64,000 nt of DNA from Allokutzneria sp. A3M-2-11 16 (GTDB taxonomy: Bacteria > Actinomycetota > Actinomycetes > Mycobacteriales > Pseudonocardiaceae). Positions 5,666-42,878 of this stretch are shown piece by piece. The stretch is from the NCBI RefSeq assembly GCF_024213555.1, contig NZ_JANAVO010000001.1, positions 1,860,001 through 1,924,000 on the forward strand, read 5' to 3'. The notes under the pieces are model-generated. The model saw only the letters and a program-made list of their open reading frames with translations. It was not told where the DNA came from and made no database searches. Position 1 is the first letter of the stretch. Each line of letters begins with the position of its first letter. The translations under genes were made by a program, and so were the position numbers.

Positions 5666-6558
5666 CCGAGCACCTCGTCGGCACGCGGGTAGGAGGGCTG
5701 CGCCCCGTGCCGCGTCACCGACGTCGCCGCGACGCGGACCGCGAAGCGCGCGGCTTCGACCATGTCCTCACCCGCGGCGAGCCTCCCCGCGAGCGCTCCG
5801 GTGAACGCGTCACCGGCTCCGGTGGTGTCCACCGGGGTCACCCGCGGCGACGGAACCGTCTGGACCCCGTCGCGATCTGCCACCACAGCGCCCTTGGCGC
5901 CGATGGTCACCACGACCGAGCGCGGCCCGACGTCCAGCAGCCGGGCGGCCAGATCCTCTGGCGCACCATCGGATCCGAGCAGCCACGCGGCCTCGTGTTC
6001 GTTGACCACCAAGGGGTTCAGCGCCGCCAGCACCTCGGCGGACAGCTCAGCGGTCGGCGACAGGTTGAGCACCGGCCGGACGCCCAGCTCCACCGCTCTT
6101 GCGACCGCGTAGTCCACTGTGGACAGTGGGATTTCCAGTGACAGCACCATGACCGCGGCATCGGCAAGCACCGCACGGGCGGCGTCCACGTCGGACTCCG
6201 ACACCGCGGAGTTCGCGCCGGGGGAAACGACGATCGAGTTCTCGCCGTCCGGGGTCACCATGATGTAGGCGTTGCCGGTCGGCCGATCGGGCCGCGCCAC
6301 GTGGGAGACGTCGACGCCCGCTCCGCGCAACGAGTCCAGCAGCAGCGCCCCGTGCTCGTCCTCGCCGACCGCGCCGAGGAAGACGACGTCCGCGCCGAGC
6401 CTGCCCGCCGCGACCGCCTGGTTGGCGCCCTTGCCGCCGGGGGAGACGACCAGGTCCGAGCCCATGACGGTCTCGCCAGGACCCGGCCGCCGGTTCAGCG
6501 CGACCACCAGGTCGGCGTTCGCCGACCCGATGACCACGACCCGCCCAGAAGAGCTCAC
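5662..6558 (-). CDS. rbsK: ribokinase
   Basis: Ribokinase phosphorylates D-ribose to ribose 5-phosphate with ATP, feeding the pentose phosphate pathway. The 298-residue PfkB-family protein shows the substrate motif GGKGANQAVAAGRLG (residues ~41-55), the anion-hole and catalytic-base motif DTTGAGDAFTGAL, and an N-terminal VVIGSANADLVV typical of RbsK. The start is the GTG at 6558, which shares a GTGA overlap with the rbsB stop. The stop overlaps rbsD by four bases. The cluster gives transport, phosphorylation and sugar mutarotation together, supporting ribose or a close pentose as the substrate. Confidence 0.95.
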   Translation of the reverse strand: MSSSGRVVVIGSANADLVVALNRRPGPGETVMGSDLVVSPGGKGANQAVAAGRLGADVVFLGAVGEDEHGALLLDSLRGAGVDVSHVARPDRPTGNAYIMVTPDGENSIVVSPGANSAVSESDVDAARAVLADAAVMVLSLEIPLSTVDYAVARAVELGVRPVLNLSPTAELSAEVLAALNPLVVNEHEAAWLLGSDGAPEDLAARLLDVGPRSVVVTIGAKGAVVADRDGVQTVPSPRVTPVDTTGAGDAFTGALAGRLAAGEDMVEAARFAVRVAATSVTRHGAQPSYPRADEVLG

Positions 6559-7487
6559 TTCTTGAACTCGGCCAGGTTCTCCTTGGTGACGACCTTGACC
6601 GGGACGTCGACCTTGGCGGTGACCGGCTCGCCCTTCGCCGCCTTCACGGCCTGCTCGACGGCGAGCTTGCCCAGCTCACGGGGCTGCTGGGCGATGGTGG
6701 CCGCCATGGTGCCCGCCTGGATCGCGGCCAGGCCGTCCTCGGTGGCGTCGAAGCCGACGACCTTCACGTCGCGACCGGCCAGCGCCTTGATCGCGCCGAG
6801 GGCCATCTCGTCGTTCTGCGCGAACAGGCCCTTCAGCGCGGCCTGCGTCGGCAGCAGGCTCGTGGTGACCTCCAGGCCCTTGCTGCGGTCGAAGTCCGCG
6901 GCCTGCTGCGCGGCGACCTTCACGCCCGCGCTCGCCTTGATGCCTTCGGTGAAGCCCTGGCCGCGGTCGCGCGCGGCGGAGGTGCCCGGGGTGCCCTGGA
7001 GCACCACCACGTCACCGGCGCCGCCGATCGCCTTGGCCAGCGCCTCGGCGGCCAGCTTGCCGCCCGCGACGTTGTCGGAGGCGATCTGCGAGGCGATCTT
7101 GGCGTTGTTCACCGCGCGGTCCACGGCGACCACCGGGATCTTCGCGTTCTCCGCCGCCTTGGCCGCCGGGGTGGCCTGGTCGGACTCGACGGCGTTGACG
7201 ATGATCGCCTTCACGCCCTGGGTCGTGAACGTCTGCACCTGGTTGACCTGGGTGGCCGGGTCGTTCTGCGCGTCCTGGACGACGAGCTTCACGCCGAGGG
7301 CCTTGGCCGCTTCCTGGGCGCCGTCGCGCAGCTGCACGAAGAACGGGTTGTTCAGCGTGGAGACGGAGAGCGCGACGGTGATCTCGCCACCGGAGCCACC
7401 GGAGCCCGCGGCACCACCGCACGCGGCGGTCAGCGCGAGTGTGGCCACGGCGACGGCCGCGAACGCGGCCCGGCGGGTGAGCTTCAT
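6555..7487 (-). CDS. rbsB: ribose-type ABC transporter substrate-binding lipoprotein (second copy)
   Basis: This is a periplasmic-binding-protein-like lipoprotein of 310 residues that should deliver sugar to the RbsA/RbsC transporter from the outer face of the membrane. The N-terminus has a basic start, a hydrophobic stretch and a lipobox ending in TAACGG. The body is Peripla_BP_4 (SVSTLNNPFFVQLRDGA, VQDAQNDPATQ, IIVNAVESDQ, FAQNDEMALGA). The ATG at 7487 is chosen because GAAAGGGAC lies correctly upstream; a GTG 18 bases earlier would bury this site in the coding region. It is a tandem duplicate of the adjacent upstream gene, with matching motifs throughout. Confidence 0.93.
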   Translation of the reverse strand: MKLTRRAAFAAVAVATLALTAACGGAAGSGGSGGEITVALSVSTLNNPFFVQLRDGAQEAAKALGVKLVVQDAQNDPATQVNQVQTFTTQGVKAIIVNAVESDQATPAAKAAENAKIPVVAVDRAVNNAKIASQIASDNVAGGKLAAEALAKAIGGAGDVVVLQGTPGTSAARDRGQGFTEGIKASAGVKVAAQQAADFDRSKGLEVTTSLLPTQAALKGLFAQNDEMALGAIKALAGRDVKVVGFDATEDGLAAIQAGTMAATIAQQPRELGKLAVEQAVKAAKGEPVTAKVDVPVKVVTKENLAEFKK

Positions 7488-7513
7488 CTGGGTTGTCCCT
7501 TTCACCTGATCAA

Positions 7514-8458
7514 CTAGTTGCGGAAACCCGCGACGTTGTCCTTGGTCACGACCTTGACCGGGACCTCGATCAACTGCCGGACCTTCTCCTTGCGGACGGT
7601 CTTCACCGCCTGCTCCACAGCCAGGCGCCCCAGTTCGCGCGGCTGCTGGGCGATCGTCGCCGCGAGGCTGCCGCCCTGCACGGCGGCCAGCGCGTCGGGC
7701 GTGCCGTCGAAGCCGACGATCATCACGTCCTTGCCCGCCCGCGCGCCGAGGGCCTTGGCCGCGCCGAGCGCCATCTCGTCGTTCTCCGCGAACACGCCCT
7801 TGAGCTTGGGCTGCGACTGCATCAGCGCGGTCATCACGTCCATGCCCTTGGCGCGGTCGAACTCGGCGCCCTTCTTGGTGACCACGCGGATGCTGCTGCG
7901 CAGGGCCATGCCCTGGGTGAAGCCCTCGTCGCGGTCGCGGCTGGCCGAGGTGCCGGAGATGCCCTGGAGGGTCACCACGTCACCGGGACCGACTGCCTTG
8001 GCCAGCGCCTCCGCGGCGAGCTGGCCGCCCTGCACGTTGTCCGAGGTCACCTCGGAGACGACCGGCCCGTCGATCGAGCGGTCCACCGCGACCAGCGGGA
8101 TCATCGCGTTCCTCGCGGCGGTGGCGATCGGGGCGGACTGGTCGGTCTCCACCGCGTTGACCAGGATCGCCTGCACCTTCTGCGTGACGAAGGACTGCAC
8201 GTCGTTGATCTGCTTGGTGGCGTCGTTCTGCGCGTCCTGCACGATCAGCTTGACGCCCATGTCCTTGGCCGCCTGCTCCGCGCCGTCCCTGAGCTGGACG
8301 AAGAACGGGTTGTTCAGCGTCGACACCGAGAACGCGATGGAGATGGCGGGCGCGCCGTCGTCGCCGGTCGAGCCTGAGTCGCACGCCGCGGTGAGCACCA
8401 GCGCGGAGGCTGCCAGGACCGCCGCTGCGACGCTCCGATGGCGACCGAAGTTCTTCAT
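7514..8458 (-). CDS. rbsB: ribose-type ABC transporter substrate-binding lipoprotein (first copy)
   Basis: This is a 314-residue sugar-binding lipoprotein with signal peptide and lipobox (LVLTAACDSG). It is clearly homologous along its full length to the gene that follows it: SVSTLNNPFFVQLRDGA and TIAQQPRELG are identical in both. The N-terminal lobe sequences differ in VSEVTSDNVQ versus ASQIASDNVA. The start at 8458 has AGGAAGGG about 12 bases upstream; a much longer open frame through rbsC is a shadow. Gaps to rbsC and to the second copy are 26 bases each. Two binding proteins for a single permease suggest different ligands or affinities, but the sequence does not show which. Confidence 0.93.
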   Translation of the reverse strand: MKNFGRHRSVAAAVLAASALVLTAACDSGSTGDDGAPAISIAFSVSTLNNPFFVQLRDGAEQAAKDMGVKLIVQDAQNDATKQINDVQSFVTQKVQAILVNAVETDQSAPIATAARNAMIPLVAVDRSIDGPVVSEVTSDNVQGGQLAAEALAKAVGPGDVVTLQGISGTSASRDRDEGFTQGMALRSSIRVVTKKGAEFDRAKGMDVMTALMQSQPKLKGVFAENDEMALGAAKALGARAGKDVMIVGFDGTPDALAAVQGGSLAATIAQQPRELGRLAVEQAVKTVRKEKVRQLIEVPVKVVTKDNVAGFRN

Positions 8459-8484
8459 CGAAAGACTGACCCTTCCTGTGGAGA

Positions 8485-9453
8485 TCACTTGTTCCGGCGG
8501 CGGAGCGTGTCGAACAGGACGGCGAGGGCGATCACCACTCCGATGACCACCTGCTGCCAGAAGGGCGTCACCTGGAGCTGGTTGAGCCCGTTGCGCAGCA
8601 CCGCGAGCACCAGGGCACCGACGAAGGTGCCCGTGGCCCTGCCGACACCGCCGGACAGCGAAGCCCCGCCGATGACGACCGCGGCGATGGCGTCCAGTTC
8701 GTAGCCCACCGCTGCCTGCGGCCCCGCCGACGCCAGGCGACCGGCCAGCAACAGCCCGGCCACCGCGGCGAAGACTCCGGCGAGGCCGTAGACCACCAGG
8801 GTGGAACGGCGCACGTTGATCCCGGACAGCCGCGCGGCGTCGGCGTTGCCGCCGACCGCGTACATGGTGCGCCCCGCGTAGGTCCGGGTCAGGATGATTC
8901 CGGTCAAACCAAACACCAGGAGCATGACCAGCAGCGGAACCGGCAGGTAGTCGCCGATCGTGCTGCCGAGCGCGGTGATCTCGTCCGGGGTGGACTTCGG
9001 GGTGCCGTCGGAGACGACCAGGGTCAGACCGCGGGCCACGCTGAGCATCGCCAGGGTCGCGATGAAGGCGGGCAGCCTGCCGTAGCTGACCATGACGCCG
9101 TTGACCAGACCGGCGGCCAGCCCGGTCACCAGGCCCGCGACCAGCGCCAGCCAGCCGGGCAGGCCCGCCTCGGTGAACGACCACGCAGCGACCATCCCGG
9201 AGAGCGCGGCGACGCTGCCGACCGACAGGTCGATCCCGCCCGAAACGATCACGAAGGTCTGCCCGAACGCGAGCACCGCCACCACGGCGGCCTGCACGCC
9301 GACGTTGAGCAGGTTCTGCGCGGTGAGGAAGTTCGGCGCCATGACCGCCAGGGCCAGCACGAGCACGATCAGCCCGCCGAGCGCCCCGTTGTCGGACAGC
9401 AGCCTGCGCAGGTCGATGCGGTCGTCGTCCCGCTCGACCAGGGTCGTCGTCAT
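8485..9453 (-). CDS. rbsC: ribose-type ABC transporter permease
   Basis: RbsC forms the membrane channel of the sugar transporter together with the RbsA ATPase. The 322-residue protein has about 8-10 hydrophobic segments and BPD_transp_2 signatures (GQTFVIVSGGIDLSVGSVAALSG, and GGASLSGGVGRATGTFVGA, the coupling-loop region). The ATG at 9453 overlaps the rbsA stop by four bases (ATGA). Starts farther upstream would extend into rbsA without membrane character. The gene sits between the ATPase and two binding-protein genes, completing one importer. Confidence 0.95.
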   Translation of the reverse strand: MTTTLVERDDDRIDLRRLLSDNGALGGLIVLVLALAVMAPNFLTAQNLLNVGVQAAVVAVLAFGQTFVIVSGGIDLSVGSVAALSGMVAAWSFTEAGLPGWLALVAGLVTGLAAGLVNGVMVSYGRLPAFIATLAMLSVARGLTLVVSDGTPKSTPDEITALGSTIGDYLPVPLLVMLLVFGLTGIILTRTYAGRTMYAVGGNADAARLSGINVRRSTLVVYGLAGVFAAVAGLLLAGRLASAGPQAAVGYELDAIAAVVIGGASLSGGVGRATGTFVGALVLAVLRNGLNQLQVTPFWQQVVIGVVIALAVLFDTLRRRNK

Positions 9454-11078
9454 GTCGCCTGCTCCCACGTCGTTTCCGCGATGCTCTCCTCGGCGGGCCG
9501 CGGGCGCCGGGTGTCGCGCTCCGCCTCCCGCCACGAGTCGGAGAAGCCCTCCGTGTGCGACCACCGGCTCGGCGTGACCGCACTGCCGGAGACCGCGAGG
9601 GCCATCACCGCGTCCTGGGTCGCCTCGGAAGCGGGCAGCTCACCGGCCACCCGGCCCGCCGACATGACCAGCACGCGATCGCTCATCCCGATCACCTCGG
9701 GCAGGTCGCTGGAGATCAGCACCACCGCGTGCCCGGCGTCGGTCAGCTCGTTGATCAGCTCGTAGATCTCCACCTTGGCGCCGACGTCGACCCCGCGCGT
9801 CGGCTCGTCCAGCACGAGCACCCGCACGTCGGCCAGCAGCCACTTGCCGATCACGACCTTCTGCTGGTTGCCGCCGGACAGTTCGCGCACCGGCTGGTCC
9901 TGTCCGGAGGACTTCACCCGGAGCCTGCCCGCCATCGCGGCGGTCCGCACCCGCTGCGCCTTCCGGTCGACGAAACCGCCCCTGGTCGCCGCGCGCATCG
10001 TGACCAGCCCGAGGTTCTCGCCGACGCTGGACGTGAGCACCAGGCCCTGGCCCTTGCGGTCCTCCGGCACCAGGCCGAGCCCGGCCCGCATCACCGCGCG
10101 CACGTCACCCGGCCTGGGGCGGCGGTCCGCGACCACGACCTCACCGGAGTCGTAACGGTCCACACCGAAGACCGCCCTGGCCACCTCGGTCCGCCCGGAG
10201 CCGACAAGTCCGGCGACTCCGAGCACCTCACCGGCCCTGACCTCGAAGGATACGTCCTCGAACGCGCCGCTCCTGGTCAGCCCGGAGACGCTGAGCAGGA
10301 TCTCGCCCGGCTCCTGGGCCCGGCGCGGGTACTGCTCGGAGATCGTGCGGCCGACCATCACCCGGACCATCTCGTCCACGCTGGAGCCCGCGGGCAGCAC
10401 GCCCACGCTCTCGCCGTCGCGGAGCACGGTGATCCGGTCGGCGATCCGCCGGATCTCTTCGAGGTGGTGGGTGATGAAGACCAGGCCGACGCCCTGTTCC
10501 CGCAGCTCGGCCATGATCTCCAGCAGCCGGTCGGTCTCGGTCTCGGTGAGCGCCGCGGTCGGCTCGTCGAGCACCAGCACCTTCGCGTCGGTGTCCAGCG
10601 CTCTGGCGATCTCCACCATCTGTTGCTGGGCGATGCCCAGCTCGCGCACCGGGGTGCCCGGATCGACCGGCAGGCCGACCCGCTCCAGCATCCCCCGGGC
10701 GCGGCGGCGGATGAGCGCGCGGTCGACGAAGCCGAAGCGCCGGGGCATCCGGCCGAGGAACAGGTTCTCCGCGACGGAGAGGTCAGGGACGAGCGTCAGC
10801 TCCTGGTGGATCACGGCGATGCCGAGCTTCGCGGCCTGCTGCGGCGAGCCGAGCCGGACCTCCCTGCCACCGACCACGATCCGGCCCGCGTCCGGGCTGT
10901 GCGCCCCCGCGAGCACCTTGACCAGCGTGGACTTGCCCGCGCCGTTCTCCCCGAGCAGCACGTGCACCTCGCCGGAGCGCAGGTCGAAGTCCACGTCGGA
11001 GAGGGCGAGCGCCCCGGTGAAGCGCTTGGTGATTCCTTCGGCTCGAAGGAGCTCGGTGCTCATCGCCTGGGGGCTCAT
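9450..11078 (-). CDS. rbsA: ribose-type ABC transporter ATP-binding protein
   Basis: RbsA carries two fused nucleotide-binding domains that power sugar uptake. In the 542-residue protein the first domain has a Walker A GENGAGKST (residues 43-51), a signature-like LGIAQQQMVEIARAL, and Walker B VLVLDEPTAAL. The second domain has the degenerate Walker A GLVGSGRTE, which is usual in this family, then LSGGNQQKVVIGKWL and VLVLDEPTRGVD. The ATG at 11078 has GGGGAGAGG upstream and shares one base with the lacI stop (TGATG). A tail of about 45 residues after the last conserved block is longer than in E. coli RbsA and is of unknown significance. Confidence 0.95.
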   Translation of the reverse strand: MSPQAMSTELLRAEGITKRFTGALALSDVDFDLRSGEVHVLLGENGAGKSTLVKVLAGAHSPDAGRIVVGGREVRLGSPQQAAKLGIAVIHQELTLVPDLSVAENLFLGRMPRRFGFVDRALIRRRARGMLERVGLPVDPGTPVRELGIAQQQMVEIARALDTDAKVLVLDEPTAALTETETDRLLEIMAELREQGVGLVFITHHLEEIRRIADRITVLRDGESVGVLPAGSSVDEMVRVMVGRTISEQYPRRAQEPGEILLSVSGLTRSGAFEDVSFEVRAGEVLGVAGLVGSGRTEVARAVFGVDRYDSGEVVVADRRPRPGDVRAVMRAGLGLVPEDRKGQGLVLTSSVGENLGLVTMRAATRGGFVDRKAQRVRTAAMAGRLRVKSSGQDQPVRELSGGNQQKVVIGKWLLADVRVLVLDEPTRGVDVGAKVEIYELINELTDAGHAVVLISSDLPEVIGMSDRVLVMSAGRVAGELPASEATQDAVMALAVSGSAVTPSRWSHTEGFSDSWREAERDTRRPRPAEESIAETTWEQAT

Positions 11079-12073
11079 CACAGCCTCTCCCCGCAGGACG
11101 CCCGGACGATGAGGCGCGCGTCGAGGTGCACTTCTCCCGGCTGCTCGCCGTTGATCAGCGCGAGCAGGCTGCGCACGGCGGCCCCGCCCATCTCCTCGGT
11201 GGGCTGGGCGACCACGGTGATCGCGGGCTCGAACAGCGGGAACCACGGCTGGTCGTCGTAGATCGCCAGGCCGACCTCGTCCGGGATGCGCCTGCCCAGC
11301 CTGCGCAGCTCCTCCAGCGCGCCGAGCCCCATCAGGTTGTCCATCGCGACCAGCACCGTAGGCGGTTCCGGCTGGCCGAGCAGCCACGACGCGGCGTTCG
11401 CGCCACTGCGGCGGCGGAAGTCCCCGTGCGTGACCAGGTCGGGTGACAGCGGATGACCGAGTGTCCGCAGTGCGTCGTTGAACGCGTGCAGCCGCTCGCG
11501 GCCGGTGCTGGTGTCCTCGGGGCCAGAGATCACCCCGATGCGGCGGTGGCCGAGCCCGACCAGGTGCGCCGCCAGCTCGCGCAGCGCCGCCGCGCCGTCG
11601 GCGTAGACGACCGGGGCGCCGCCGACGTCGATCCGCCGGTCGAGCAGCACCAGCGGCACGTTGCGCGCGCTGACCTCGCTGACCCAGCCGTCGTCGTCGG
11701 TCGCCGGGCACACCAGCAGGCCGTCCACCCTGCGGTCGAGCAGCGTGCGCACGTAGCGCTCCTGCTGCTCCACGTTCTCGTCGGCGTTGCCGAAGATCAC
11801 CACGTAGCCGTGCTTGCGCGCCTCGTCCTCGACCGCGCGGGCGATCTCGGCGAAGAACGGGTTGAGCAGGTCGCTGATGACCAGGCCGAGGGTCTGCGTC
11901 GAGTGCACCCGCAGGGAGCGGGCCAGCACGTTCGGCCGGTACTCCAGCGCGTCGACGGCGGCGAGCACCCTGGCGCGGGTTTCCGGGGTGGGGGCGGAGT
12001 GGCCGTTGAGCACCCGGGAGACGGTGGCGGTGGAGACGCCCGCGCGACGCGCGACGTCCTTCATCGTGGCCAC
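11078..12073 (-). CDS. rbsR: LacI-family regulator of the ribose operon
   Basis: This is a cytoplasmic repressor, probably relieved by ribose or a derivative. Residues 1-50 form the LacI helix-turn-helix and hinge (MKDVARRAGVSTATVSRVLNG, NVLARSLR); the rest is a periplasmic-binding-protein-like effector domain (LGLVISDLLNPFFAEI, ISGPED, AIYDDQPW). The GTG at 12073 gives the typical N-terminus MATMKDVA and has GGAGGAG eight bases upstream; the GTG at 12112 and ATG at 12091 are less likely. It is the first gene of the operon, so it is autoregulated through the two operator sites at 12130-12166. The target assignment is inferred from position. Confidence 0.9.
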   Translation of the reverse strand: MATMKDVARRAGVSTATVSRVLNGHSAPTPETRARVLAAVDALEYRPNVLARSLRVHSTQTLGLVISDLLNPFFAEIARAVEDEARKHGYVVIFGNADENVEQQERYVRTLLDRRVDGLLVCPATDDDGWVSEVSARNVPLVLLDRRIDVGGAPVVYADGAAALRELAAHLVGLGHRRIGVISGPEDTSTGRERLHAFNDALRTLGHPLSPDLVTHGDFRRRSGANAASWLLGQPEPPTVLVAMDNLMGLGALEELRRLGRRIPDEVGLAIYDDQPWFPLFEPAITVVAQPTEEMGGAAVRSLLALINGEQPGEVHLDARLIVRASCGERL

Positions 12074-12129
12074 CGTTGGCGCTCCTCCCATTGTGATCAC
12101 GGGCGTTTTCACCGTGACACAAGCCGTGC

Positions 12130-12168
12130 GTGTATTCGATTACACGACCCGGTTAATCGAATACACAA
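12130..12168 (-). promoter_or_regulatory. ribose operon promoter with two LacI-type operators
   Basis: Two CG-centred half-palindromic 16-mers, GTGTATTCGATTACAC (12130-12145) and GGTTAATCGAATACAC (12151-12166), lie 21 bases apart centre to centre. They form a perfect 13-base inverted repeat (12130-12142 and 12154-12166). A CG centre is usual for LacI-family operators, and 21 bases is two helical turns, so two dimers would bind the same face. On the minus strand TTGTGT (12163-12168) and TGTAAT (12139-12144) at 18-base spacing are a plausible promoter lying inside the sites. Confidence 0.75.
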
Positions 12169-12261
12169 GAAGGATTCCGGACTGAATCGAAACAGATGAC
12201 TTCTGTGTCGACCGAAAGGCCGACATTCAGCCCAGCGGATGACACCCACGCGACGGAACGA

Positions 12262-12298
12262 GATGACGCGGTCCGGCTCCGTAGCCGGACGCGTCATC
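12262..12298 (-). terminator. hairpin terminator downstream of the MMPL gene
   Basis: GATGACGCGGTCCGGCT, loop CCGT, then AGCCGGACGCGTCATC pair along almost their whole length with one bulged G. The hairpin lies 12 bases past the stop of the MMPL gene, before the ribose promoter region. No T tract follows, as is common for actinobacterial terminators. Confidence 0.7.
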
Positions 12299-12310
12299 CC
12301 CTCCGCGGGC

Positions 12311-14863
12311 TCACCCGATGAGCTGCGCCGTCGTCCGGTGCATCACCAGGCGCCCGGTGGCGGGCGGCACCCGCTTCAGCCACGAGTCCACGTGGGTCTT
12401 GGTCGCGATCCGCATCAGCCAGGGCAGCGGCCGGTCGATCCCGGGGTTCGCAATCTCGGTACAGGCGACGAACGCGCGGGCCATGGTCTCCTGCACCAGC
12501 CGCTCGGCGTGGTTGATGTCGCCCGCCAGGCGCAGGCAGTACTGGAACAGCTCCGGCCGCAGCGGCTCCAGGCGGTGCAGGAAGTCGCGCTTGGCGTTGC
12601 GCACCGTGTGGATCAGCTCCGGCTCCAGCACCACCGAGGCCACCGCGATGGCGCGCTCGGCGAACCGGGGCATCCGGGTGGTGGAGGTGGTCTCCAGCGC
12701 CTTGGCCGCCGCGGGCACCAGCTCGTCCAGCTCGTCGCGCTCCTGGAGGCCGATCCGCTGCTGCAACCGCCGCAGCGAGGCGGGCGCCCACCAGGTGAAC
12801 TCGCCCTGGAGCTTCACCAGGGCCGGGACCAGCAGCATCCGCACGATGGTGGCGTCCAGCGCGAGCGCGAGGATCATGCCGATCCCGATGAAGCGCATCA
12901 GCGCCATGTCGGAGAACGAGAACGCGCCGGTGACCACGATCAGCAGCACGGCGGCCGCGCTGATCACCTTGCCGGTCTTGCCGAGGCCGATGCTCACGGC
13001 CTCCTCGGTGGTCGCGCCGCGTTCGCGGGCCTCGACCATCCGGGACATCAGGAAGACCTCGTAGTCGGTGGACAGGCCGAAGACCACGGCCGCCATCAGC
13101 ACGACGACGCCCGCCTCCAGCGGCCCCGGCTCCACGCCGAGCAGATCGGCGCCGTGGCCGTCCTGGAACACCCAGACCAGCGCGCCGAAGGTCGCGGTCA
13201 GGCTCACCGCGCTCATTACAACGGCCTTGATCGGCATCATCACCGAGCCGAAGGCCAGGAACATCAGCACCATGGTCGCGCCGACCACCAGGCCGATCAT
13301 CCACGGCAGCTGGGCGGCGGTGGCGGCGAGGCTGTCCACCACCTCCGCGGTGCGGCCACCCACCATGACCTCGGTGTTCTGCGGCTCGGAGAGGTTGCGC
13401 AGGTCCGCGACGGCGGTCTTGGCCTCGGAGCTGAGCGAGCCACCGGGCAGCTTCGCGCTGATCGTGGCGACGTCACCGGCGGCCTGGCCGGGCCGCACCT
13501 CGGTGACGCCGGGGACCTTGCCGACCTCGCCGATGAACTTCTGCACGGTCTCCGGCGTCGGCGCCTTGCCCTGGTAGCCGCGCAGCACGATCTGCGCGCC
13601 GTCCGCGCCGAGCTGCGGGAACTCCCGCATCAGCTGCTCGGCGGACTGGCGGGCGGAGTTCTCCTGGGGCAGCACCTTCTCGGTGACCGCGCCGAAGTTG
13701 ACGCCGAGGAACGGGGCGCCGAGCACGAACAGCAGCGCCAGGATCGGCGCGGCGACGAAGACCGGGCGCTTCATCACCCAGTCGGCGAGCTTGCGCCAGC
13801 CCGGCCACTCGCGGTGCTGCACGGCGCCCTTGCCGCGCCGCCACGGCATGGACAGCGAGTCCACCCGGCGGCCGAGCACCGCGAACACCGCGGGCAGCAG
13901 GGTCAGCGAGAGCACGGCGGCGATGCCCACCGCGGCCATGCCGCCGTAGCCGACGGACTTGAGGAACGCCTGCGGGAAGAGCAGCAGACCGCCGAGCGCG
14001 ATCACCAGCAGGGTGGAGGAGAAGGCGACGGTGCGGCCCGCCGTCGCGACGGTGCGCTGCACGGCGTCCTCGGTGGAACGACCGCCCGCCAGCTCCTCGC
14101 GGAACCGGCCGACCATGAACAGCCCGTAGTCGATCGCGAGCCCGAGCCCGAGCAGCGTGGCCACGTTCACCGCGAAGGTGTTCACGTCGCCGAAGACGGT
14201 GAGCAGCCGGAGCACACCGAGCGCGCCGAGGATGGTCAGGCCGCCGATGGCCACCGGCAGCGAGGCCGCGACCAGGCCGCCGAAGAACAGCACCAGCAGC
14301 ACCAGCGTCACCGGCAGCGAGATCAGCTCGGCCCGCACCAGGTCGCTGTGCGAGGTCTCGTTGATCTCCTTGCCGAGCGCGTAGTAGCCGGTCACGGTGC
14401 TCTGCGCGCCGTCGACCGAGATCATCTCGCGGACCTCGTCGAACGCGGCCAGCTTCTCGTCCTCGTTGGCGCCCGCGAGGGTGAACACCGCGACGCCGCG
14501 ACGCTTGTCCGGGGTGGCGAACTGCGGGTTCGGCAGCTGCCAGTAGGAGACGACCTTGGCGACCTTGTCCTTCGGCAGGGTGCTCAGCCTGCTGTTGATC
14601 CGCTGGCCCAGGTTCGGGTCGTCCACGGTCGAGCCCTGCGGCACGGTGTAGATCGCGACGAAGTCACCACCCGGCTTGCCGAGCGAGCTCTCCACCGCCT
14701 TGGTCGCCTGCACGGCCTCGCTGGTCGGGTCCTCGTAGCCGCCCTGGGAGAGCCGGTCGAAGACCCCGCTGCCCCACGCACCGCCCAGCAGCGCGATCAG
14801 CAGCACGGCCGCGACGACCAGCCAGCGTTGGCGGTGAACGATCGAACCCCAAGCAGCGAACAC
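12311..14863 (-). CDS. MMPL/RND-family exporter with a C-terminal sigma-region-2-like domain
   Basis: Residues 1 to ~710 form an MMPL-type RND exporter with about 12 membrane segments, two extracytoplasmic loops and the family stretch GLSTDYEVFLMSRMVEAR; members export lipids or drugs using the proton gradient. After the point where the paralogue at 15107-17281 is nearly finished, 141 more residues follow. Within these, residues ~761-831 resemble ECF sigma region 2: LFQYCLRLAGD, AERLVQETMARAF and PWLMRIATKTHVDSWLKR. No region 4 follows. The frame runs through without interruption. The GTG at 14863 has GGAGGGG upstream and gives the same N-terminus as the paralogue; an ATG 24 codons earlier is less likely. 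The role of the extra domain is unknown. Confidence 0.85.
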   Translation of the reverse strand: MFAAWGSIVHRQRWLVVAAVLLIALLGGAWGSGVFDRLSQGGYEDPTSEAVQATKAVESSLGKPGGDFVAIYTVPQGSTVDDPNLGQRINSRLSTLPKDKVAKVVSYWQLPNPQFATPDKRRGVAVFTLAGANEDEKLAAFDEVREMISVDGAQSTVTGYYALGKEINETSHSDLVRAELISLPVTLVLLVLFFGGLVAASLPVAIGGLTILGALGVLRLLTVFGDVNTFAVNVATLLGLGLAIDYGLFMVGRFREELAGGRSTEDAVQRTVATAGRTVAFSSTLLVIALGGLLLFPQAFLKSVGYGGMAAVGIAAVLSLTLLPAVFAVLGRRVDSLSMPWRRGKGAVQHREWPGWRKLADWVMKRPVFVAAPILALLFVLGAPFLGVNFGAVTEKVLPQENSARQSAEQLMREFPQLGADGAQIVLRGYQGKAPTPETVQKFIGEVGKVPGVTEVRPGQAAGDVATISAKLPGGSLSSEAKTAVADLRNLSEPQNTEVMVGGRTAEVVDSLAATAAQLPWMIGLVVGATMVLMFLAFGSVMMPIKAVVMSAVSLTATFGALVWVFQDGHGADLLGVEPGPLEAGVVVLMAAVVFGLSTDYEVFLMSRMVEARERGATTEEAVSIGLGKTGKVISAAAVLLIVVTGAFSFSDMALMRFIGIGMILALALDATIVRMLLVPALVKLQGEFTWWAPASLRRLQQRIGLQERDELDELVPAAAKALETTSTTRMPRFAERAIAVASVVLEPELIHTVRNAKRDFLHRLEPLRPELFQYCLRLAGDINHAERLVQETMARAFVACTEIANPGIDRPLPWLMRIATKTHVDSWLKRVPPATGRLVMHRTTAQLIG

Positions 14864-15106
14864 GAGCCCCTCCGGATGGCAGCAGTCCGGCAACCACAAC
14901 CGTCCGGCCAGTCCGGCCTCTGAGCAGCAGATCAATCACTCTCAGTAGGAGATCCCGAACTTTTTACGCCAAACGGTGGAACGCGACAGAAGCTACTCGG
15001 GGGTATCCGCTAACGATAGCGTCACAGAAAGAAGTCTGATGTTGAAAGTAGCCTTTTCCAGGTGCAGGCAAACACGGTTGGGTGAAGCCTCTGTGGATCT
15101 TGCTTG
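14864..15106. other. intergenic region between the two MMPL genes
   Basis: These 243 bases must hold the promoter of the first MMPL gene. No coding frame is convincing. A small inverted repeat CGCTA-ACGA-TAGCG is present near 15009-15022, and CCAAACGGTGGAAC near 14970 shares AAACGGTG with the TetR operators at 17351-17406 but is too degenerate to call. No consensus -35/-10 pair stands out. Confidence 0.4.
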
Positions 15107-17281
15107 TCAGGCCACAGGCTGGGGAGTCCTGGACGTTGCGGTGTCCTCCGGAAGGTCGTCGGACTCCTGGAGGCCGACTCGCTGCTGAAGCCTCCGAAGC
15201 GGCCCCGGCGCCCACCACGCCGCGTTGCCGAGCAGCCGCATGACGGCGGGGACCAGCAGCATCCGCACGACGGTCGCGTCCAGCACCAGCGCGAGGATCA
15301 TGCCGACGCCGACGAACCGCATCATCGCCACGTCGGAGAAGGCGAACGCGCCGGTGACCACGATCAGCAGGACGGCGGCCGCGCTGATCACCCGCCCGGT
15401 CTTGGCGATGCCGGTGGCGACCGCTTCGGCATTGCTCGCGCCCTTCGCCCTCGCCTCGACCATCCGGGACATCAGGAAGACCTCGTAGTCGGTGGACAGG
15501 CCGAACACGACGGCCGCCATCAGCACCACGATCCCGGCCTCCAGCGGCCCGGGGGTCACCCCGATCAGGTCGGCGAGGTGGCCGTCCTGGAACACCCACA
15601 CCAGCACGCCGAAGGTCGCCGACAGGCTCAGCGCGCTCATCACCACGGCCTTGACCGGCAGCAGCACCGAACCGAACGCGAGGAACATCAGCAGCAGCGT
15701 CGCGCCGATCACCACGACGGCCATCAGCGGCAGCTGCTCGATGATCGCGTCCAGCGAGTCGGTCACCTGCGCGGTGATCCCGCCGACCAGGAGGTCGGTA
15801 TTCGGCGGCGGTGACACGGAGCGGATCGCGGTGACCGCGTCCTTGGCGGCGCTGCCCATCGAGTCGCCGGGCAGCTTCGCGCTCAGCGTGACGACGTCCT
15901 TGGCCGCCCCGGTCACCTGGACGGCGCTGACCCCGGGCACGTTGTCCACGGAGGCGGCGAAGCTCGCCACCGCACGCTGGTCGGGCGCGGAGCCGTCACG
16001 GCTCTTGATCACCAGCTGCGCGCCGTCGTTGGCCAGGCCGGGGAAGTTCGTGTTCAGCGTCTCGGTGGCCTGGCGGGTGGCGTTGGAGGCGGGCAGCACC
16101 TTCTCGGTGACCGCGCCGAAGCTCGCGCCGAGGAACGGCGCGCCGAGCAGCAGCAGAACGGCCACGATCGGCACCGCGACCAGGGCGGGGCGACGCATCA
16201 CCCCGGTGGCCAGCCGGTGCCAGCCGCGACCCTCCTCCGCGGCGGCGCGCTTGTTCTTCCGCCACGGCAGGCCGAGCGCGTCCACCTTCTTGCCGAGCAC
16301 GGCCAGCAGCGCGGGCAGCAGGGTCAGCGAGACCAGCGCCGCGATGCCCACCGCCGCCATGCCGCCGTACGCGACGGACTTGAGGAAGCCCTGCGGGAAC
16401 AGCAGGAGCCCGGCCAGCGCGATGATCAGCAGCGTCGCCGAGAACGCGACGGTGCGGCCCGCGGTGGCCACGGTGCGGCGCACGGCGTCCGGGGTCGCGC
16501 GGCCCGCCGCGATCTCCTCGCGGAAGCGCCCGACCATGAACAGCCCATAGTCGATCGCGAGGCCGAGCCCGAGCAGCGAGGCGACGTTCACCGCGAACGT
16601 GCTGACCTCGGCGAAGGAGGAGATGACCCGGATGACGCCGAGCGAACCGAGGATCGCCAGGCCGCCGACGGCCACCGGCAGCGAGGCCGCGACCAGGCCG
16701 CCGAAGATCACCACGAGCAGGATCAGGGTGAGCGGGACGGAGACGAGCTCGGCCTTGATCAGGTCGGTCTGGGTGGTCTCGTTGATCGCTGCGGCCATCG
16801 GCACGAACCCGGAGATCTCCGCGCGCACGCCCTCGACCTGGAGCTTGTCCCGCAGCTCGGGGTACTGGCTGATCTTCTCGTTCTCGTCGCCGGAGCGGAG
16901 CGTGACCACGGCGATCCCGCGCTTCTTCTCCGCGTCGGCGAACTGCGGCGCCCTGGTGTCCCAGTAGGACAGCACGCGCTCCACCTTGTCGGTGGGCAGC
17001 GCGCGCAGCCGCTCGGTGATCTTGGTGGCGACCGCCGCGTCGTCCACGGTGCCGGTCGGCACGGTGTAGACGACCGCGAGGTCGCCGCCCTGGCGGCCGA
17101 GGGCCTCCTTGGCGGTGGCGCTCGCCCGCGCCGCCTCGCTGCCCGGGTCCTCGTAGCCGCCCTGCGAGAGCTGGCCGAAGACCCCGGCTCCCCAGGCCCC
17201 GCCGATGACCGTGAACAGCACGATCGCGATGGCCACCAGCCAGCGGCGGCGGTGGACGACGGAACCCCACGAGACGAACAC
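15107..17281 (-). CDS. MMPL/RND-family exporter
   Basis: This is a 724-residue inner-membrane exporter, a paralogue of the neighbouring MMPL protein and of ordinary length for the short actinobacterial MMPL group. Visible features are the N-terminal segment (WGSVVHRRRWLVAIAIVLFTVIGGAWG), the DYGLFMVGRFREE stretch after TM4-5, and GLSTDYEVFLMSRMVEAR in the second half. The GTG at 17281 has GGAGGG seven bases upstream. It is transcribed away from a TetR regulator gene, and the shared 143-base region holds a paired operator, so it is probably the main target of that repressor and exports whatever the repressor senses. The substrate is unknown. Confidence 0.92.
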   Translation of the reverse strand: MFVSWGSVVHRRRWLVAIAIVLFTVIGGAWGAGVFGQLSQGGYEDPGSEAARASATAKEALGRQGGDLAVVYTVPTGTVDDAAVATKITERLRALPTDKVERVLSYWDTRAPQFADAEKKRGIAVVTLRSGDENEKISQYPELRDKLQVEGVRAEISGFVPMAAAINETTQTDLIKAELVSVPLTLILLVVIFGGLVAASLPVAVGGLAILGSLGVIRVISSFAEVSTFAVNVASLLGLGLAIDYGLFMVGRFREEIAAGRATPDAVRRTVATAGRTVAFSATLLIIALAGLLLFPQGFLKSVAYGGMAAVGIAALVSLTLLPALLAVLGKKVDALGLPWRKNKRAAAEEGRGWHRLATGVMRRPALVAVPIVAVLLLLGAPFLGASFGAVTEKVLPASNATRQATETLNTNFPGLANDGAQLVIKSRDGSAPDQRAVASFAASVDNVPGVSAVQVTGAAKDVVTLSAKLPGDSMGSAAKDAVTAIRSVSPPPNTDLLVGGITAQVTDSLDAIIEQLPLMAVVVIGATLLLMFLAFGSVLLPVKAVVMSALSLSATFGVLVWVFQDGHLADLIGVTPGPLEAGIVVLMAAVVFGLSTDYEVFLMSRMVEARAKGASNAEAVATGIAKTGRVISAAAVLLIVVTGAFAFSDVAMMRFVGVGMILALVLDATVVRMLLVPAVMRLLGNAAWWAPGPLRRLQQRVGLQESDDLPEDTATSRTPQPVA

Positions 17282-17424: not shown

Positions 17425-18153
17425 ATGACCGAGAGCACTCGGCGCGAAAAGCTTCGGGCGGACACCGAACGGGAGATCCTGGCCTGCGCCCGTCGCCTGC
17501 TCGTGGAGGACGGCAGCCACGCCGTCACCCTGCGCGCCATCGCCCGCGAACTCGGCATCACCGCGCCCGCGCTGTACCGCTACTACGACTCGCGGGCCGA
17601 CCTGCTGCGGCACGTCTGCGACGACATCTCCGCCGACCTCGCCGCGACGCTCAACCCACAGCTCAGCGCGATCCCCATCTCCCAGCCGACCGAGCGGGTG
17701 TTCGCGGTGTGCCGAGGCTTCCGGCAGTGGGCGCTGGCCCATCCCCGGGAGTTCACCCTCGTCTTCGCCACCAGCCCCGAGGAGACCGGAACCCCCGCCA
17801 ACCGCCCCGCCCAGGACCACTTCGGCCGGGTGTTCCTGGAGGTGGCGGGCCCGCTGCTGAGCGAGCACAAGATCTACCCGTCTGGGTCGCTGGATGTGCC
17901 GGAGCGGCTGCGCGGCGAGCTGACTGCCTACCGCGACGACCTCGCCGCCAGCCTGGCCGCGGCCGGTCACCAGGTGGCGGGGGAGAAGCTCCAGCTCGGC
18001 ACGATCTACCTGATCCTGCAGTGGTGGGCGCGGATGTACGGCCACGTGGCACTGGAGGTCTTCGGCCGCTTCCCGTTCGCGGTCAACGACGCCGAACCGC
18101 TCTTCGAGTCCATGCTCACCGAACTCGCCTCGGTCGTCGGCTTCTCTAGCTGA
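17425..18153 (+). CDS. TetR-family transcriptional regulator
   Basis: This is a 242-residue repressor. The N-terminal ~65 residues are a TetR helix-turn-helix (EILACARRLLVEDGSHAVTLRAIARE, then ITAPALYRYYDSRADLL). The C-terminal half is a ligand-binding domain of the WHG/TetR_C_13 type (HPREFTLVFATSP). The ATG at 17425 follows GGAGTGAGGT. Divergent placement beside the MMPL exporter and the paired palindromes between them suggest it represses both itself and the exporter until an exported compound binds. Its 3' end overlaps the convergent peptidase gene by eight bases. Confidence 0.92.
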   Translation: MTESTRREKLRADTEREILACARRLLVEDGSHAVTLRAIARELGITAPALYRYYDSRADLLRHVCDDISADLAATLNPQLSAIPISQPTERVFAVCRGFRQWALAHPREFTLVFATSPEETGTPANRPAQDHFGRVFLEVAGPLLSEHKIYPSGSLDVPERLRGELTAYRDDLAASLAAAGHQVAGEKLQLGTIYLILQWWARMYGHVALEVFGRFPFAVNDAEPLFESMLTELASVVGFSS

Positions 18154-41434: not shown

Positions 41435-41450
41435 CGTTTCACGTGGAACG
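41435..41450. other. parS site in the sigM promoter region
   Basis: CGTTTCACGTGGAACG contains GTTTCACGTGGAAC, which differs at one base from the bacterial ParB-binding consensus GTTTCACGTGAAAC. It is about 8.5 kb from parB and only 14 bases before the sigM start, so bound ParB could affect sigM transcription. Confidence 0.75.
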
Positions 41451-41463
41451 TTATTCTCGCCGC

Positions 41464-42081
41464 GTGACAGCCGCTGCCAGTTCGGACGGTGCTCTCATAG
41501 CGGCACACGCCGCGGGCGATCCCCACGCGTTCACCGAGTTGGTGCGCAGGCATCGGGATCGGTTGTGGGCGGTTGCCCTGCGCACCCTCCGCGATCCGGA
41601 AGAGGCGGCCGACGCGCTCCAGGAGGCGTTCATCTCCGCCTTCCGCGCCGCCGGCTCGTTCCGCGCCGAGTCCCAGGTGACCACCTGGCTGCATCGGATC
41701 GTCGTGAACGCCTGCCTCGACCGGATCCGCCGCCGCCAGGCCAGACCCACGGTGCCGTTGCCCGAGGCGGGCCCGGGAGAACCCGCGGTCACCAGGGACG
41801 CGATGGCCGACCGGGAGACCTCGCTCGCCGTCCAGTCGGCGCTGGCGGAGCTCCCGGCCGAACAGCGATCCGCCATCGTCCTGGTGGACGTCGAGGGCTA
41901 CTCCGTGGCCGAGACGGCGAAGATCCTGGGCATCGCGGAGGGCACGGTGAAGAGCCGCTGCGCCAGGGGCCGGGGGAAACTGGCCAAAGTGCTGGGGCAT
42001 CTGCGGAACCCCGACGCGGGTGACAACGTCTCACATGATGCTGGGGCCAGGCAGGCACGGCGCCATGGGGAGGGAAGATGA
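41464..42081 (+). CDS. sigM: ECF sigma factor SigM
   Basis: This ECF sigma factor of 205 residues directs RNA polymerase to envelope or oxidative-stress promoters. Region 2 is seen as DPHAFTELVRRHRDRLW, DALQEAFISAFRAAG and TTWLHRIVVNACLDRIRRR; region 4 as ALAELPAEQRSAIVLVDVEGYSVAETA and GTVKSRCARGRGKLA. The GTG at 41464 directly follows the promoter segment and a parS site. The stop overlaps the anti-sigma gene by four bases. The place beside trxB/trxA and the conserved order identify it as SigM; its regulon is inferred. Confidence 0.93.
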   Translation: MTAAASSDGALIAAHAAGDPHAFTELVRRHRDRLWAVALRTLRDPEEAADALQEAFISAFRAAGSFRAESQVTTWLHRIVVNACLDRIRRRQARPTVPLPEAGPGEPAVTRDAMADRETSLAVQSALAELPAEQRSAIVLVDVEGYSVAETAKILGIAEGTVKSRCARGRGKLAKVLGHLRNPDAGDNVSHDAGARQARRHGEGR

Positions 42082-42878
42082 CCGGCAACGAGCGGCGTTC
42101 ACGGACGCCTGATGGACCGCCGTGGTCCGTTGACCTCCTTGCTGACCTGCACGCGGGTGTTCTCGACGTCGACGTCGCGGCCGAACTGCGGCCGCGGGTG
42201 GAACGGGACCCGGAGGCCAGGGCGGTGCTCGCCGCGCTGGACGCGACCACCGCCGACCTCGCGGCGCTGCCGCCGGTGACCATGCCGCCGGAGGTCTCCG
42301 CGCGCATCGAGGCGGCGATCCAGCAGGAGGTCCGCGCCGCCATGGCGAACGTCGGCCTCCAGGTGTCCGCACCCGGACCGGCTCCGCGGGGCAACGTGGT
42401 CTCGCTCGACCACGCCCGGCGCAGGCGCAGGAAACAGCTCGGCTGGGGCGGCGGCGTGCTCGCCGCGGCCGCGGCCGTCTTCGGCATCGTGGTGATGACG
42501 CTTCCCGGCAACACGACCGCGGGCACGCCCCAGGCGCAGCCCGGCGTCACTCCGAGTTCTTCCGCGCCGGGGCCAGGGGACGGGCCCTTGACGCTCAAGG
42601 ACTCCGACCTCGCCACGGTCCCGCCCGGCGTCACCGGTGCCAGCGACCTCGGCCCGCTCAGCGACAAGGCGAAGCTCTCCGCCTGCCTGCAGGCCAACGG
42701 CTACCCGGCCACCACGGTCCCGCTCGGCGCCCGTCAGGTGACGCTGGACGGCAAACAGGGCGTGCTGCTGATCCTGGGCGATCCCGCCATGGTGGGCAGG
42801 CAGCGGCTGCTCGTCGTGGGGCCGAACTGCTCGGCTGGCAACCCGGACAAGCTCGCCGAGAAGACCGTCGGACGCTAG
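42078..42878 (+). CDS. anti-sigma factor for SigM
   Basis: The 266-residue single-pass membrane protein should hold SigM at the membrane until a signal arrives. The N-terminal ~115 residues are cytoplasmic and helical, ending in a basic stretch (HARRRRRKQ). One membrane helix follows (LGWGGGVLAAAAAVFGIVVMTLPG), then an extracytoplasmic domain with two Cys (SACLQANGYP and VGPNCSAG) that may form a disulfide. No zinc HxxxCxxC motif is seen. It is coupled to sigM by an ATGA overlap and matches the position of mycobacterial Rv3912. Confidence 0.85.
   Translation: MTGNERRSRTPDGPPWSVDLLADLHAGVLDVDVAAELRPRVERDPEARAVLAALDATTADLAALPPVTMPPEVSARIEAAIQQEVRAAMANVGLQVSAPGPAPRGNVVSLDHARRRRRKQLGWGGGVLAAAAAVFGIVVMTLPGNTTAGTPQAQPGVTPSSSAPGPGDGPLTLKDSDLATVPPGVTGASDLGPLSDKAKLSACLQANGYPATTVPLGARQVTLDGKQGVLLILGDPAMVGRQRLLVVGPNCSAGNPDKLAEKTVGR

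Follow-up and report, generated by a model that had tools for sequence, protein, structure and literature searches.

MmpL3 and other exporters of the MMPL-RND class harbor MMPL domains, Asp-Tyr pairs in both halves, and an extra domain after the last transmembrane segment. All of these features recur in the product of a fused gene found in a 64,000-nucleotide stretch of Allokutzneria DNA (the window). In MmpL3, the Tyr-Asp pairs are named for proton relay, and the C-terminal domain is suggested to be highly disordered (PMC10171966). The fused protein differs from MmpL3 in its score against the NCBIfam equivalog NF052608 (657 bits, below the cut-off of 1400) and in its tail, the last 141 residues, for which a sigma2 fold is predicted.

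The tail is most similar to ECF sigma factors that carry C-terminal extensions. SigX5 and PRK08241 are its best NCBIfam sigma models, and the ECF56 factor SigG1 (7qh5) is a PDB match both by sequence (E 0.0062) and by fold. In contrast to these factors, the tail lacks region 4 and the extension, and in its region 2.2 the acidic residue is exchanged for an arginine. A sigma domain and a transmembrane part are also combined in one protein in the membrane-tethered groups ECF36, ECF48, ECF52, and ECF53; these are described as sigma factors fused to their own anti-sigma part, whereas here an exporter precedes a lone sigma2 domain (PMC8999054). Elsewhere in the genome of the window, a sigma factor (L080, G000:C11:2885033-2885239) lies in a 706 aa open frame with a CxxC stretch, a hydrophobic segment, and a proline-rich region, and resembles by eye the membrane-tethered ECF52 type.

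PhyR is an anti-anti-sigma factor that works by sigma mimicry. The idea of a sigma-like domain as a decoy is what it would share with the fused protein, and the PhyR-NepR structure 3t0y ranks 34th among the fold matches of the tail (probability 0.44). Unlike PhyR, the fused protein has neither a receiver domain nor a sigma4 part, and PhyR_sigma2 is not matched in it at E ≤1, MMPL and Sigma70_r2 being the only domains found. A mechanism in common with PhyR is thus far only hypothesized. T4 gp55 is not known to be a membrane protein. It resembles the tail in having a sigma2 homology domain without sigma4 but differs, as characterized in PMC7892883, in its acidic residues contacting the clamp helices and in its helix-loop-helix.

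The Fused Gene and Its Neighborhood

The frame at 12311-14935 on the minus strand is open across 874 codons. The gene probably starts not at 14935 but at the GTG at 14863, behind GGAGGGG, which gives a product of 850 aa. The 24 codons upstream of this GTG do not look conserved as protein, because their dN/dS is 1.5 and 1.1 in two genome pairs and undefined in the third. The features of the locus, in window positions, are as follows.

12311-14863, minus strand: fused gene, MMPL exporter and sigma region 2-like domain, 850 aa, probable GTG start
14867-14873, minus strand: GGAGGGG, a ribosome-binding-site-like sequence ahead of the GTG start
12749-14863, minus strand: MmpL3-like MMPL body, residues 1-705, with both Asp-Tyr pairs (D245/Y246 and D600/Y601)
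12578-12748, minus strand: linker, residues 706-762, dN/dS 0.30-0.67
12371-12577, minus strand: sigma region 2-like core, residues 763-831 (69 codons), dN/dS 0.04-0.08
12500-12502, minus strand: codon of Arg788, where 34 of 34 free sigma2 domains compared have D or E
12314-12370, minus strand: C-terminal end, residues 832-850 (19 codons), zero amino acid changes across three genomes
12256-12304, minus strand: strong terminator-like hairpin directly 3′ of the stop codon, in all three genomes
15107-17281, minus strand: unfused MMPL paralog in tandem, upstream, 63% identical, 243 bases before the fused GTG start
17425-18153, plus strand: TetR-family regulator, divergent from the MMPL pair
11078-12112, minus strand: LacI-family regulator, downstream, at the head of a sugar-transport cluster

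Pfam MMPL is matched in two stretches of the whole protein (E 2.3e-68, 231 bits against a cut-off of 20.5), and the same protein matches Sigma70_r2 with E 2.7e-5, while MMPL is the only Pfam match of the paralog at 15107-17281. The fusion of an exporter to sigma region 2 that the initial annotation had read from the sequence is thereby borne out. The exporter part appears intact, with an Asp-Tyr pair in each half (DY at residues 269 and 624, counted along the 874-codon frame). Its hydropathy profile, examined for the 12 transmembrane helices of MMPL-RND exporters, shows overlapping peaks. By analogy with MmpL3, the C terminus of the fused pump would lie on the cytoplasmic side.

The hairpin that follows the stop codon has a minimum free energy of about −37 kcal/mol, with z-scores of −4.66, −5.96, and −4.51 in the three genomes. 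The transcription unit of the fused gene plausibly ends there, since a strong hairpin stands just after the stop in each of them. The hairpin has no T run and is absent from the list of a consensus terminator scan; the promoter and terminator scan returned zero promoter-like sites and one terminator-like site, where 1.5 were expected. Positions 12130-12166, in the gap separating the fused gene from lacI, hold a perfect 13-base inverted repeat with an 11-base spacer. It is identical downstream in three genomes, had no match in 100 shuffles, and is possibly a LacI operator.

Several minor features were observed around the locus. The transport cluster downstream of lacI contains two adjacent sugar-binding-protein-like open reading frames on the minus strand (6555-7505 and about 7514-8500), which by eye look alike around the beginning of the mature part. 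An antisense open frame of 894 codons (12239-14923, plus strand) covers the fused gene, and an off-frame minus-strand translation is 84% identical in G034. Long antisense or off-frame frames are easily mistaken for genes in G+C-rich DNA.

The Sigma Region 2 Domain

By profile and predicted fold, the tail is a sigma region 2 domain of ECF type with its fold presumably kept. In the whole protein, the Pfam Sigma70_r2 score of 24.3 bits is barely above the cut-off of 24, and for the 141-residue tail alone it rises to 28.4 bits (E 1.4e-6). Thirty-six NCBIfam families match the tail at E ≤1, the best 25 of which are all sigma-factor models, headed by PRK08241 (E 2.5e-12) and SigX5 (E 4.8e-10). The best sequence match in the PDB is SigW (5wuq, E 2e-5). 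The core occupies residues 763-831 of the 850-residue protein, a correction of the earlier placement at about 761-831. Region 4 had been called absent, and this is what was found: the Pfam search at E ≤1 matched region 2 only, and inspection by eye of the three minus-strand frames downstream disclosed no sigma4 remnant.

An AlphaFold model of the tail was computed from an input of the tail, the L006 sequence, and one true sigma2 row from the window. Its mean pLDDT is 68.9; residues 51-90 and 101-120 are better modeled, at block means of 84-94. A Foldseek search with this model gave 119 matches, the top 16 of which are ECF sigma chains representing about five different proteins (SigH, SigW, SigR, SigE, and SigL). 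The best match has a probability of 1.00 over 80 aligned columns with a weak E-value of 0.017; no match reached E ≤0.001, and the true sigma2 row may have helped the model. The full-length AlphaFold model is uninformative (pLDDT 41).

The genome of the window has 55 Sigma70_r2 matches at E ≤1e-5, and the fused domain, at 28.8 bits, is the weakest. The tail was aligned with 34 free sigma2 domains, 30 of them from the 54 other matches in this genome (those returned as loci, a few not of ECF type) and four from relatives. At the position of Arg788, the free domains have Asp (32 of 34) or Glu (2 of 34) and never Arg; Arg788 is identical in the three genomes, in agreement with the claim that the acidic residue of the DLVQE motif is replaced by Arg. 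The clamp-binding motif retains Gln791 and Glu792, which agree with 28 and 25 of the 34 free domains, respectively. Lys822 stands where 30 of the 34 have Asn or Arg, and Leu829 where 24 have Arg.

On the basis of the D-L-I/V-Q-E motif shared by sigma32 and the tail, we take Arg788 to be at the position of sigma32 D77. In the sigma32 open complex, D77, E81, I84, and M87 are reported to lie opposite a part of beta-prime containing R275, R278, and R281, and the interface residues listed toward the beta-prime clamp helices include D77 and E81 (PMC10216364). Reversal of the charge at Arg788 should therefore weaken RNA polymerase binding, although retention of Gln791-Glu792 makes some binding possible. 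Because region 4 was not found and the charge is reversed at an RNA polymerase interface residue, the tail is presumably a pseudo-sigma2 and not a working sigma factor.

Conservation among Allokutzneria Genomes

Three genomes of the genus were compared, namely those of the window (G000), G034, and G068; the relative L006 is not counted as a fourth. The fusion is present in all three of the Allokutzneria genomes examined, where it had been proposed to look for it. In the three pairwise comparisons, dN/dS of the sigma2 part (69 codons) is 0.039, 0.059, and 0.082. The corresponding values are 0.08-0.16 in the MMPL body and 0.30-0.67 in the linker. The sigma2 part has 1.5, 2.5, and 3.0 non-synonymous versus 11.5, 12.5, and 11.0 synonymous differences. 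Binomial comparison with equal rates gives p values of 1.6e-5, 1.5e-6, and 5.6e-5, for which the counts were rounded to 2/13, 2/15, and 3/14 in pairs that are not independent.

The tail looks like a translated and maintained domain, since its dN/dS is low, its last 19 codons are invariant, and the hairpin is shared. Purifying selection among three such close species fits a docking surface or mere fold stability alike. A frameshift or assembly error separating the two parts, which would have undone the fusion, is very unlikely: frame, stop, and hairpin are common to the three genomes, and an indel of 3 bases in the linker is in frame.

Distribution and Origin

Allokutzneria is a small group of soil bacteria. 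Among the genomes searched, the fusion is restricted to this one genus. A profile of the tail matched four of 390 genomes of the family at E ≤1e-11, three of them the fusions and the fourth a free sigma factor (G008). In 396 genomes of the phylum, five matched at E ≤1e-8, namely the gene of the window and four frames of 348-425 aa, one of which (G303) is a sigma factor by its look. With the whole protein as query, 153 of 297 family genomes match at E ≤1e-100. Thirty of these exporter loci were read. In the 27 from other genera the protein stops 32-69 residues past the WW motif, and in the three fused ones it continues for 160-161. A query across the junction had matches in 146 of the 396 phylum genomes, and among the matches listed only the gene of the window covers query residues 1-291. 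The furthest of the others, in G611, contains a stop and extends to residue 204, the point in the query at which the sigma2 core starts.

No other fusion was thus found in the 390 family and 396 phylum genomes, with a sensitivity that reaches near relatives only. The phylum sets sample the group evenly, and only three rows, nearly identical to one another, went into the tail profile, so fusions that are distant or arose independently could be missed. G056 was considered as a further fusion and rejected: its match reaches query residue 816 through two stop codons, its open frame is 733, and it is also absent from the four tail-profile matches in the family. Ten plasmid records match, none across more than 80% of the query; three have annotated sigma factors under the match, and seven have no annotation there. 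Of 62 pattern stretches in viral contigs, none was confirmed.

The order leuS-tetR-mmpL is found in five relatives (G001, G010, G016, G124, and G029), with one mmpL in the stretch read. In G034, L006, and the window, a second, fused mmpL copy lies between the first mmpL and the lacI sugar-transport cluster; leuS is outside the sequence piece of L006. In a tree of 23 rows, the fused copies group together (100/100) and separately from the unfused paralogs of the same genomes. A motif filter had dropped 10 of the 27 loci of unfused relatives, including the close L014 and L017, and the alignment rows of L008 and L009 begin one residue short. The fused clade is placed beside L016 (93/93, not starred), a neighbor that is not firmly placed.

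The closest free sigma factor found is L039 of G008, which is 42% identical over tail residues 39-125 and has regions 2 and 4 as well as a C-terminal extension. Its alignment with the tail has only a one-residue gap around region 2.3; three other rows are without two further residues. A donor within the same genome was rejected, as the best other match is 38% identical (E 2.1e-6), and in the relatives L053, L054, L056, and L058 no donor sigma gene adjoining mmpL was noticed by eye. It is proposed that a tandem second exporter copy in the leuS-tetR-mmpL order gained the sigma2 half of an ECF sigma factor. This gain would predate the split of the three Allokutzneria species, and by profile its source would be closest to factors of the SigX5/PRK08241 type that carry C-terminal extensions. 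The free sigma gene of G008 (L057 8020-9282, minus strand) lies, by eye, between a DNA polymerase III alpha-like gene and an acetyltransferase-like and two P450-like genes, and no anti-sigma gene was evident next to it.

Proposed Role of the Tail

The explanation favored here, which is considered somewhat probable, is that an exporter copy acquired a pseudo-sigma2 as a cytoplasmic docking domain. The sigma2 part would keep its fold and serve as a docking site on the pump. Its most likely specific partner would be an anti-sigma factor, bound through sigma mimicry as in PhyR, and the pump would hold or release this factor according to pump state or abundance. The anti-sigma factor is the leading guess for the partner, with RNA polymerase or a structural role as possible alternatives. 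Class I anti-sigma factors are described as contacting regions 2.1 and 2.2 of sigma2, on a face that also binds polymerase (PMC7406223). Because anti-sigma contacts at this face are weakly conserved, the altered face of the tail fits a decoy better than a polymerase tether. Against docking stands the gene neighborhood: neither a sigma nor an anti-sigma gene was spotted next to the fused gene (flanking genes by profile, others by eye). The control of ECF41 factors by their own C-terminal domain is also counted against it (PMC8999054). SigG1 has the anti-sigma partner RsfG, and its truncated forms are reported to have failed to bind RsfG in two-hybrid tests (PMC7730460), which makes it less likely that sigma2 by itself would suffice as a decoy there.

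Two other functions may be weighed against the docking domain. The sigma2 fold may simply provide a stable cytoplasmic C-terminal domain for assembly, localization, or phospho-control, with no link to transcription. The cytoplasmic C-terminal domain of MmpL3 is described as being involved in localization, protein interactions, and phosphoregulation (PMC10171966); together with the loss of common sigma residues from the tail and the fast-changing linker, this speaks for a structural role, which leaves unexplained, as weak objections, both the choice of a sigma2 domain and its near-invariance across the three genomes. Such a role is possible but rather doubtful. The initial annotation had also suggested tethering of core RNA polymerase, whereby the sigma2 domain would bind the beta-prime clamp helices and recruit or block the polymerase at the membrane. 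T4 gp55 offers a precedent, in that its sigma2 homology domain without sigma4 is reported to bind the clamp helices and support initiation (PMC7892883). Gln791 and Glu792 would favor a tether, but the charge reversal makes it less likely: Arg, found in none of the 34 free domains, stands where sigma32 has D77, and the interface of that residue takes in arginines of beta-prime (PMC10216364). In gp55, moreover, substituting acidic residues at this interface disrupts binding (PMC7892883). Tethering is thus considered unlikely.

Finally, the tail could be a recent, non-functional read-through into a sigma pseudogene, as might be expected of the weakest of the 55 Sigma70_r2 matches in the genome and of a fusion confined to one genus in the searches made. 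This reading is largely contradicted by the dN/dS of 0.04-0.08, by the lack of internal stop codons, and by the identical stop and hairpin in the three genomes, and is regarded as highly improbable.

The initial annotation knew of no described protein of this architecture, and none was found in a search of the open-licence literature (by title or abstract opening, mostly without subscription journals). If RNA polymerase or an anti-sigma factor binds to the tail, one protein would link envelope export to gene expression, with the transporter acting as its own transcriptional signaling device, and a sigma region 2 domain would have been turned into a protein-binding module on a pump. Even with a structural role, the fusion would illustrate, within one genus, the recruitment of a transcription-factor domain to an exporter.

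The only other Sigma70_r2 match in the window at E ≤1e-5 falls about 29 kb from the fused gene, in a gene for a SigM-type ECF sigma factor (41443-42081, plus strand; NCBIfam PRK09643, 282.5 bits against a cut-off of 190). Adjoining it on its 3′ side is a putative anti-sigma factor gene (42078-42878, plus strand), which scores 39.6 bits, below the cut-off of 100.
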